DNA of 64,000 nt from assembly GCA_029262635.1 (NCBI GenBank), contig JAJCZA010000012.1, positions 62,001 to 126,000 of the forward strand, read 5' to 3'. This document shows positions 3,579-5,345 of the stretch, piece after piece. Source of the stretch: Vampirovibrionales bacterium (GTDB taxonomy: Bacteria; Cyanobacteriota; Vampirovibrionia; Vampirovibrionales; Vampirovibrionaceae). The notes under the pieces are model-generated. The model did no database searches. It worked only from the letters and a program-made list of their open reading frames with translations, and was not told where the DNA came from. Made by a program: the position numbers and the translations under genes. Position 1 is the first letter of the stretch. Each line of letters starts with the position of its first letter.

Positions 3579-4691
3579 CTATTGGTTTTCCGCTACGTTG
3601 CCACCACTGATGATGCTAACGGTTATTTTTCCGGCGGTTGGGCGGCAGTCCTCCTGGCATAAGACGGGTGAGACGGCGACACCGGCTGCACCTTCCACGT
3701 GGGTGTTGAGGTCGGATTGTACAAAATTCAGTCCTTGTTCGATATCTGCATTGGGAACCTCTCGAAGAGAAACCCTTAGATGTTCTAATCGATGACGGCT
3801 TTTTGCTTCGAGTGTCTTTACTCGAATGGCGTCACCCAATGGCGATGCCATGTCGGCCAGGCGCAAGCCAATAAAGCGGAGAGTCAGGTTTTTCAAGCCC
3901 GGAATTGTTTTTGATGCGGAACCGAGCCCATTGGCTATTCCCGTGAGTAATCCACCGCCGCCGACCGGGACAATCACATCAAGTTGGTGTGTTTCCGGCT
4001 TTAATAAAGGTAACACCTGTTGGGCCAGTTCAAGACCGATGGTACCTTGCCCTGAGATGACATCATGATCCAGAAAAGGGTCAATGTAATGCCCTTTTAG
4101 GCTTTGGGCATGGGTGCGGGCCTCCTCAAAGTTTTGGCCTTGTAAAACCAGCTGGGCATTAACGTCCTGAGCTTTTAGGTTTTCTATTTTAGCCAGCAGT
4201 TTTTCTTGTTTGGTTGGCAGTACGTTTGTCGGGATGACCAGTTGAACTTGTTTAGGGCGAAGCAACTCGGCGGCTTTTAAAACGCCCATGGCGTGATTGC
4301 CTGTTGACACCGTGACAAATGAATTTTTTCCTTGTTCCATGGCTCTCGACATCGAAACAACAGCACCACGAACCTTATAAGCGCGTGTACTGGTTAAGTC
4401 TTCTCGTTTATAAAACAGTCCGGGTTTTTTGCGGGAGGCCTGAAGGGGAGTAATGGCGCCATGGGTTTCTCGAGGCAGACCGGTTAAGCGTAACGCATCG
4501 ATATAAGGTAACAATCGTTTCTGCGCTTGAAGGCTATTGAGATAAAGAGAGTCCAAATCATGGTTGGCCGCCTGACCAAAATGCGGGAAAAAAGCTTGGG
4601 AACCCATAGAATGCGTTTGTTGAGTCAAGCGGTTATTATTTATGGTCGGAGGTCTTTGGGTTGTTACGGATTGAAATGAGAGTGTCGTCAT
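3579..4691 (-). CDS. ilvA: threonine dehydratase (threonine ammonia-lyase), PLP enzyme
   Basis: A fold-type II PLP enzyme that deaminates threonine to 2-oxobutanoate, the first step of isoleucine synthesis. The Schiff-base lysine is in TRAYKVRGA (K106). The substrate loop appears as STGNHA, the phosphate-binding glycine loop as VGGGGLLTG, and the C-terminal cofactor-ring contact as SGGNV. At 370 aa it ends after the catalytic domain, so the C-terminal ACT regulatory domain of classical biosynthetic IlvA is missing. The first 40 residues are an unusual polar extension. The isoleucine-rich leader peptide and terminator just upstream argue for a biosynthetic role controlled by attenuation. A serine or catabolic threonine dehydratase is the alternative. 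Confidence 0.88.
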   Translation of the reverse strand: MTTLSFQSVTTQRPPTINNNRLTQQTHSMGSQAFFPHFGQAANHDLDSLYLNSLQAQKRLLPYIDALRLTGLPRETHGAITPLQASRKKPGLFYKREDLTSTRAYKVRGAVVSMSRAMEQGKNSFVTVSTGNHAMGVLKAAELLRPKQVQLVIPTNVLPTKQEKLLAKIENLKAQDVNAQLVLQGQNFEEARTHAQSLKGHYIDPFLDHDVISGQGTIGLELAQQVLPLLKPETHQLDVIVPVGGGGLLTGIANGLGSASKTIPGLKNLTLRFIGLRLADMASPLGDAIRVKTLEAKSRHRLEHLRVSLREVPNADIEQGLNFVQSDLNTHVEGAAGVAVSPVLCQEDCRPTAGKITVSIISGGNVAENQ

Positions 4692-4781: not shown

Positions 4782-4856
4782 TCAACAGCAATCAGAACTC
4801 ACCGGGGAAGCAGTGAGCATAATAATAATTTGAATGCTGTTAATCAATGTGTTCAT
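4782..4856 (-). CDS. ilv-type leader peptide, 24 aa
   Basis: A short ORF on the minus strand, MNTLINSIQIIIMLTASPVS followed by SDCC and TGA, too short for the ORF track. It has five Ile codons (three consecutive ATT), two Leu, two Val and two Thr in 24 residues, the hallmark composition of ilv leader peptides. It stops about 27 bases before the terminator hairpin. The segment CCCCGGTGA lies about 14 bases after the Ile run, so a ribosome stalled at Ile would leave it free to pair with the terminator arm. No strong Shine-Dalgarno is visible, which is the weak point. Confidence 0.8.
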   Translation of the reverse strand: MNTLINSIQIIIMLTASPVSSDCC

Positions 4857-4910
4857 AAGAATAATCGAAATAAAAATCCTGATTAAATTTAGAAAAAATG
4901 TAAGGTTTAT

Positions 4911-4940
4911 TATTTAACCAGATTTTTGAAACGAGGTCAA
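4911..4940 (-). promoter_or_regulatory. candidate sigma70 promoter for the ilv leader-ilvA transcript
   Basis: On the minus strand TTGACC (4940-4935) and TAAATA (4916-4911) are 18 bases apart, predicting a start near 4904 and a leader of about 210 bases that contains the leader peptide and attenuator. The -35 overlaps the T-rich tail of the preceding terminator. The -10 is a weak match, so the exact start is uncertain. Confidence 0.45.
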
Positions 4941-4988
4941 ATAAAAAGAAAGCCTCGTTATTGATATTAACGATCAATTGACGAGGCT
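4938..4988 (-). terminator. intrinsic terminator of the candidate sRNA
   Basis: AGCCTCGT (4951-4958) and ACGAGGCT (4981-4988) form a perfect 8-bp outer stem, continued after a small internal loop by ATTGAT/ATCAAT. On the minus strand the stem is followed by TTCTTTTTATTT. Nothing but the candidate sRNA interval lies upstream on this strand before tRNA-Asn on the opposite strand. Confidence 0.75.
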
Positions 4989-5059
4989 AAATAAAAGTGT
5001 GTCTGTATTGGAGGCTCAGCCTCCAGAAGGAAGGACTAATTGAAACTAATTCTCAATTG
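4942..5059 (-). ncRNA. candidate trans-acting small RNA, about 118 nt
   Basis: No ORF is present on the minus strand, yet the interval has everything a small RNA gene needs: a promoter with 17-base spacing ending at about 5066, a predicted start near 5059, and an intrinsic terminator at 4951-4988 with a T-rich tail. The transcript would contain the unpaired CU-rich stretch UAGUCCUUCCUUCU, complementary to Shine-Dalgarno sequences. Next comes a compact hairpin, UGGAGGCU-C-AGCCUCCA in + strand sense (5009-5025), then an A/U-rich linker and the terminator. Two inverted Fur-box-like operators overlap its promoter, which suggests iron control like that of RyhB- or FsrA-type RNAs. No family is recognised; existence and function are inference. 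Confidence 0.55.
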
Positions 5060-5095
5060 AGAGGTATCTTAGCCTAATTGAGAATTAGTTGCAAT
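5039..5095. promoter_or_regulatory. two inverted Fur-box-like operators
   Basis: The 20-mer AATTGAGAATTAGTTGCAAT (+ strand, 5076-5095) recurs inverted at 5039-5058 with a single change (T for G). The core is a perfect 15-bp inverted repeat. Each copy resembles the Fur 7-1-7 consensus TGATAATnATTATCA: TGAGAATTAGTTTCA matches 11 of 14 and TGAGAATTAGTTGCA 10 of 14. The centres are about 32 bases, or three helical turns, apart. One copy covers the -35 and the other the predicted start of the candidate sRNA promoter, an arrangement expected for repression. Confidence 0.65.
5066..5094 (-). promoter_or_regulatory. candidate sigma70 promoter of the sRNA
   Basis: On the minus strand TTGCAA (5094-5089) and TAAGAT (5071-5066) are separated by exactly 17 bases. 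Each hexamer matches its consensus at 4 of 6 positions. The two operator copies flank and overlap it. Confidence 0.5.
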
Positions 5096-5182
5096 AGTTT
5101 GTTTTTCCATGCTCTAAATATTAATCAAAGAGTTGTCTTTTCGGCTGCGATACCGCTTTTTAAATTTCCTTAATTTAAAGGG

Positions 5183-5212: not shown

Positions 5213-5238
5213 GCTATCTATACTATTTAAAAATCTAT

Positions 5239-5310
5239 TCCTCAGTAGCTCAATGGTAGAGCATGCGGCTGTTAACCGCAGGGTTGTAAGTTCGAGTCTT
5301 ACCTGGGGAG
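5239..5310 (+). tRNA. tRNA-Asn (GTT anticodon)
   Basis: The cloverleaf folds completely. The acceptor is TCCTCAG/CTGGGGA with discriminator G, the D-stem GCTC/GAGC, the anticodon stem TGCGG/CCGCA with loop CTGTTAA, and the T-arm GTAAG-TTCGAGT-CTTAC. The anticodon GTT decodes Asn codons. CCA is not encoded. An eight-base T run follows immediately at 5312. It is the only RNA gene of a standard class seen in the window. Confidence 0.96.
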
Positions 5311-5345
5311 ATTTTTTTTGTTTTATTTACAGGGGGCGTTCTATC

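Follow-up and report, generated by a model that had tools for sequence, protein, structure and literature searches.

A candidate Fur-controlled small RNA in Vampirovibrionales with a ferredoxin mRNA as its predicted target

A predicted RNA gene between tRNA-Asn and an ilvA-like gene

The window, the whole 64,000-nt stretch of DNA that was analysed (G000:C12:62001-126000), belongs to a 2.99 Mb genome (G000) that is the sole member of its genus among the genomes compared. Another genome of the same family, G005, carries a locus identical letter for letter to that of Vampirovibrio chlorellavorus NCIMB 11383 (contig LAPX01000003.1), so the family of the window is that of Vampirovibrio, in the order Vampirovibrionales. 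The V. chlorellavorus family consists of non-photosynthetic relatives of cyanobacteria, and Vampirovibrio itself is predatory. The locus comprises the following features (window coordinates):

5238-5311, plus strand: tRNA-Asn (GTT), divergent neighbour of the predicted small RNA
5066-5094, minus strand: promoter, with -35 TTGCAA (5094-5089), a 17-nt spacer and -10 TAAGAT (5071-5066)
5078-5094: upstream Fur-like operator, TTGAGAATTAGTTGCAA on the plus strand, 10/14, overlapping the -35 hexamer and the spacer
5040-5056: downstream Fur-like operator, TTGAGAATTAGTTTCAA on the minus strand, 11/14, at about +4 to +20 of the transcript
4939-5059, minus strand: predicted small RNA of ~120 nt, from the inferred start (~5059) to the end of the T-tract
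5025-5034, minus strand: CU-rich stretch CCTTCCTTCT
5010-5024, minus strand: palindromic hairpin GGAGGCTGAGCCTCC, covering the CCUCC end of the pairing segment
4990-5014, minus strand: pairing segment CCTCCAATACAGACACACTTTTATT, complementary to positions -32 to -8 of a ferredoxin mRNA at 23/25 positions
4939-4988, minus strand: intrinsic terminator, stem AGCCTCGT (4988-4981) and ACGAGGCT (4958-4951), T-rich tail TTCTTTTTATTT to ~4939
3579-4691, minus strand: PLP-dependent enzyme (ilvA-like), the downstream neighbour in the window genome

All of the parts named by an earlier, sequence-only reading of this DNA were confirmed at their places: the minus-strand promoter with 17-base spacing and a start near 5059, the two Fur-like operators at 11 and 10 of 14 positions, the CU-rich stretch, the compact palindromic hairpin and the intrinsic terminator with its T-rich tail. 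Its description of the transcript as ORF-free also holds, as no ORF of at least 20 aa lies within the transcript on its own strand; the only listed minus-strand ORF (4840-4977) starts inside the terminator and then extends out of it. The predicted fold of the RNA beats 200/200 shuffles (z -4.6). Neither the promoter nor the terminator was listed by a simple scan, since the promoter scores just 8/12 and the terminator loop measures 22 nt.

Searching the window and five homologous loci with the Rfam 15 covariance models at gathering score matched tRNA alone; no Rfam riboswitch matched at the locus, and a permissive scan of positions 4900-5130 gave sub-threshold matches alone. The suggestion that the sequence has no named family is thus upheld as far as Rfam is concerned, and has to be qualified in that the RNA has relatives in other genomes. 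Two more Fur-like matches (at least 10/14), ~39 bp apart, lie at window positions 4813-4866, in an AT-rich region preceding the ilvA-like gene, and may be due to chance.

Conservation of the promoter, operators and terminator across the order

Conservation in relatives, on which the sequence-only reading had made its proposal depend, was found throughout the order: a homologous promoter, Fur-like operators and a terminator-ended, ORF-free RNA are present in 13 of 18 genomes (G000-G007, G010-G013 and G016), each accepted by reading the DNA downstream of the model match. Two of these (G003 and G016) have the upstream box alone. The predicted homologues measure 79-161 nt, except that of G011, which was counted even though its assigned terminator is far (227 nt). 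G011, G012 and G003 are the weaker cases; the G012 sRNA is the second-best model match in its genome and that of G003 a weak one (E 0.001), and both were chosen by reading downstream, which is partly a matter of judgement.

Searched at the DNA level, the 10 genomes of the family gave a match in one other genus, G001, at the same place beside tRNA-Asn, and reading upstream of tRNA-Asn placed the locus also in G002, G005, G006 and G007, so that tRNA-Asn is a neighbour common to these five. In the alignment, TTGCAA is invariant in 6/6 loci, the upstream box is kept and a second box lies past the -10. A 62-position promoter model matched 17 of the 18 order genomes at E <= 0.01. The locus often stands beside tRNA-Asn and/or an MTAP gene, the latter lying downstream instead of the ilvA-like gene in five relatives and also in G003 and G014. 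Reading the tRNA-Asn neighbourhood and applying the promoter/operator model succeeded in finding the RNA, unlike a search by its 14-mer alone, which gave mostly unrelated matches; a contig scan with the ilvA-like protein as query returned no relatives.

By the promoter model and downstream reading, G008, G009, G015 and G017 yielded no sRNA. A tRNA-Asn match is absent from G008 and G009 too, and the locus may therefore be missing from these two assemblies. G014 (Vampirovibrio sp. DET50b) was left out of the 13, as repeat-like sequence follows its conserved promoter, as if a repeat element had interrupted the sRNA. Across the class, the model matched 17/240 genomes at E <= 1e-4, 11 within the order and 6 outside it. 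Eight sites outside the order were read and rejected: in seven an ORF starts within the first ~115 nt of the stretch, so that they resemble promoters of protein genes, and the eighth is close to the end of a contig. Double Fur-like promoters in other families of the class (G019, G021, G026, G029, G045 and G052) stand mostly before protein genes.

Judged from the window by itself, a Fur assignment would be no better than chance (42 sites at 10/14 and 8 at 11/14 among 63,986 positions scanned), and it is the conservation in relatives that lifts the predicted operators above it. The downstream operator scores 12-13 of 14 in G002, G005, G006 and G007. A 13/14 box is positioned 41 nt before feoA in G001, and a promoter-model match also precedes feoA in G012. 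Sites at 13/14 number three in all in ~829 kb of Vampirovibrionales DNA, namely before feoA in G001, before the gene of a 468-aa protein in G000 and in the sRNA operator of G007; 12/14 sites are numerous, several of them at meaningless places. A palindrome search of the G000 genome with one mismatch allowed gave 9 places against 7 for a reversed control pattern, so the motif by itself is not specific in G000.

The Fur family (PF01475) is encoded in 10/10 family genomes. G000 has five matches, of which one falls below the curated cut-off; among solved chains, its best Fur-type protein most resembles ferric uptake regulators. The operator at the promoter that characterizes Fur-regulated iron-sparing sRNAs takes the form here of two conserved predicted boxes, with a similar box at feoA. 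The earlier proposal of an iron-regulated sRNA gains support from this feoA box and from the order-wide conservation of promoter, operators and terminator.

Comparable boxes occur at protein genes as well. A double Fur-like promoter precedes a 494-aa porin-like protein without a Pfam match at G000:C29:100914-100969, next to a gene whose product resembles aconitase by eye, and another, in G012:C15, precedes a porin-like protein with a weak BBP2 match below cut-off. Boxes scoring 13 or 12 of 14 lie before ~400-470-aa proteins alike at the N-terminus in G000 (C22:22336), G016 and G017; the G000 member has no Pfam match, and these are possibly a conserved iron-regulated protein.

Complementarity to ferredoxin leaders

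The DNA search of the family also returned, in G000 itself, the ribosome-binding region of an 82-aa dicluster ferredoxin. The sRNA segment at 5014-4990 is complementary at 23/25 positions to -32 to -8 of this mRNA (G000:C17:72427-72451, outside the window), and in 2.99 Mb an exact match to the core 12-mer CTGTATTGGAGG occurs just twice, in the sRNA and at the ferredoxin ribosome-binding site. In the predicted complex the hairpin GGAGGCTGAGCCTCC, which partly hides the pairing segment in the free predicted RNA, is rearranged, and 13 continuous pairs form over -20 to -8, extended upstream after single mismatches. The sequence-only reading had proposed pairing with ribosome-binding sites through the CU-rich stretch. 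The pairing now has a concrete predicted target in ferredoxin; the stretch CCTTCCTTCT, present as described, is not conserved in the homologue alignment and is ruled out as the seed. The segment involved is CCUCCAAUACAGACAC(AC), on the immediate 3' side of the CU-rich stretch, and the seed is CCUCCAAUACAGACAC rather than CCUUCCUUCU.

The G000 ferredoxin was picked because it matches the sRNA, and the independent test is therefore provided by the other genomes alone. Ferredoxin gave one match at E <= 1e-10 in each of the 10 family genomes, and at least one in 7/8 genomes of other families. The G001 sRNA shares TGTATTGGAGGAAC (14 bases) with its own ferredoxin leader; that of G003 can form 12 Watson-Crick pairs at a site preceding the Shine-Dalgarno of the leader; G013 has 11 bases of a different sequence, GGTATAGGAGG; and G016 a 13-pair helix of yet another sequence. 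The pairing would fall on the Shine-Dalgarno in G000, G001, G005-G007 and G013 and upstream of it in G003 and G004, with a different sequence in G016. Complementarity near the ribosome-binding site of an iron-protein mRNA, a hallmark of iron-sparing sRNAs, is thus predicted here and follows the changes between genomes, and the sRNA gene and its ferredoxin target appear to have evolved in concert.

For each genome, the contiguous-helix energy with its own ferredoxin was compared with that of gene starts of the same genome, counting those as good or better (the background comprised 588 gene starts from 11 genomes in all, crudely called in the window and in 20 stretches). None was as good in G000 (0/60), G001 (0/36), G003 (0/49), G006 (0/69), G013 (0/43) and the second ferredoxin of G010 (0/66), and few were in G005 (1/58), G012 (1/37), G007 (3/70) and G004 (4/48). 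Ranks were ordinary for G002 (7/52) and the first ferredoxin of G010 (13/66), and, against the pool, for G011 (228/588) and G014 (403/588). Reshuffling sRNA-ferredoxin partners gave sets as good in 32/20,000 cases for six genera of one family and in 0/20,000 for 11 genera, likewise 0 for 12 with G014 included, figures that overstate significance because the genomes are related.

Cofolding, which counts self-structure, found no gene start as good or better in G000 (0/60), G002 (0/52), G003 (0/49), G012 (0/37), G010 (0/66 for both ferredoxins) or G016 (0/150 of a pooled sample), and few in G004 (1/48) and G006 (2/69). It lent no support in G001 (25/36), G005 (17/58), G007 (24/70) and G013 (9/43), which by our own explanation is because the segment there lies in the terminator loop, where nested cofolding cannot score it. 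G011 (121/150 of the pool) and G014 (24/150) received no support for ferredoxin pairing by either measure. These two measures took the place of plain duplex folding, whose long gapped duplexes were not comparable.

A predicted iron-sparing RNA and its alternatives

From the parts, their conservation, the box shared with feoA and the complementarity that tracks the ferredoxin leader from genus to genus, all of which can be read in the sequences, we infer transcription, Fur binding, the direction of regulation and a translational block. Very probably, the locus encodes a Fur-repressed trans-acting sRNA that would reduce ferredoxin synthesis when iron is scarce, most likely an iron-sparing sRNA of the RyhB/IsaR1/IsrR type. 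When iron is replete, Fur (a Fur-type protein lies at G000:C24) would occupy both operators, at the -35/spacer and just past the start, keeping the gene off. In iron starvation the ~120-nt RNA would be transcribed, ending at the intrinsic terminator, and its segment 5'-CCUCCAAUACAGACACAC-3' would pair with the Shine-Dalgarno region of the 82-aa dicluster ferredoxin mRNA, blocking ribosome loading; ferredoxin synthesis would be repressed and iron saved. Repression of ferredoxin in iron starvation is the simplest reading, given the predicted complex covering the ribosome-binding site and the two-operator layout, which matches that of IsrR. A Fur-controlled pairing sRNA, as the sequence-only reading interpreted its parts, is the interpretation that the comparison supports.

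IsaR1, of Synechocystis and other photosynthetic cyanobacteria, is described in the available parts of the reports as an iron-stress sRNA with ferredoxin among its repressed targets (PMC6202907, PMC7247011). By published description alone it resembles the predicted RNA as an iron-stress sRNA of the same broad lineage with a ferredoxin target, and in its small size, 68 nt as against a predicted 79-161 nt in the homologues here (G011 excepted). It differs in that its reported targets, in those same parts, centre on the photosynthetic apparatus, and in that the ferredoxin here is of the bacterial dicluster type. To our knowledge, the Vampirovibrio lineage has no photosynthetic apparatus.

IsrR of Staphylococcus is reported, in the portion of the paper available, to carry one Fur box within the promoter region and a second directly after the start, to have C-rich segments with an implied role in binding iron-enzyme mRNAs, Shine-Dalgarno region included, and to possess a poorly conserved terminator (PMC9410917). 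The two-operator layout, compared as published, is that of the sRNA here; IsrR belongs to a different phylum, differs in sequence, is described with other targets, including nitrate respiration enzymes, and has three C-rich regions as against one main segment here. RyhB, PrrF and FsrA are Fur-repressed iron-sparing sRNAs, as proposed here, and RyhB-like sRNAs, according to the part of the review available, recur in bacteria with little or no shared sequence while controlling similar transcripts (PMC9294342). The present sRNA would on that account be a new family of a known kind; it is set apart from RyhB and other Rfam families by the tRNA-only Rfam result, and is most likely a new family.

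A literature search on sRNAs in Vampirovibrionales returned nothing relevant, and no paper combining 'Vampirovibrio' and 'sRNA'. If real, this would be the first sRNA proposed for the order as far as the literature searched shows, and predatory relatives of cyanobacteria would gain an RNA-target pair open to checking. From genus to genus the pairing appears to move, always with the same partner, which makes a natural series for studying sRNA-target co-change. It is also conceivable, though we hold it unlikely, that one ancestral Fur-controlled RNA has been paired with ferredoxin order-wide, its segment rewritten several times, perhaps as a non-photosynthetic counterpart of IsaR1. The locus gives a way to ask whether iron-sparing through ferredoxin control predates photosynthesis in the lineage; were the RNA indeed such a counterpart, ferredoxin control by an iron-stress sRNA would be older there than oxygenic photosynthesis.

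Several other explanations bear on the same features. The window has many Fur-like sites at 10-11 of 14 and the promoter reaches just 8/12, so one could suppose a chance promoter, no sRNA, and a hairpin that terminates, at a distance, the zinc-ribbon gene at 5897-5346. We give this almost no credence: promoter and both operators are kept between genera, and the zinc-ribbon gene ends ~290 nt upstream of the predicted start, past a tRNA on the other strand. The MTAP gene found downstream in five relatives, G003 and G014, ~100-300 nt past the terminator where measured, would suit a transcript that acts in cis, as an attenuator or riboswitch in the leader of that gene. Such a leader is very improbable, however, as the gene downstream is an ilvA-like enzyme in the window genome and, among the loci shown, other genes are the neighbours in family f2; the RNA stops at its own terminator, Rfam riboswitches do not match it, and the ferredoxin complementarity would be left unexplained. 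Boxes of Fur superfamily regulators are alike, and with five PF01475 matches in G000 (one below cut-off) the operators could serve a zinc, manganese or peroxide regulator instead, which we regard as improbable: in G001 and G012 such a box stands before the ferrous-iron uptake gene feoA, and the predicted target is an iron-sulphur protein.

Whether the sRNA would regulate many iron-protein mRNAs besides that of ferredoxin, as RyhB and IsaR1 do, is an evenly balanced question, and a wider regulon would be compatible with the Fur-repressed sRNA preferred here. Known iron-sparing sRNAs are described, in the parts of the reports available, as having many targets (PMC6202907, PMC7247011, PMC9410917), and an anti-Shine-Dalgarno seed fits many mRNAs. 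The long, changing match suggests, on the other hand, that ferredoxin is the main target, and the best of 60 window gene starts reaches -17.7 kcal/mol against -20.9 for ferredoxin, a comparison that covered in G000 these 60 starts and one near-exact motif search of its own genome. That search gave 11 one-mismatch sites of the 12-mer beyond the two exact ones, most of them overlapping ORFs (contexts read quickly). One of these sites, at G000:C2:216141, is located just before a possible start codon.
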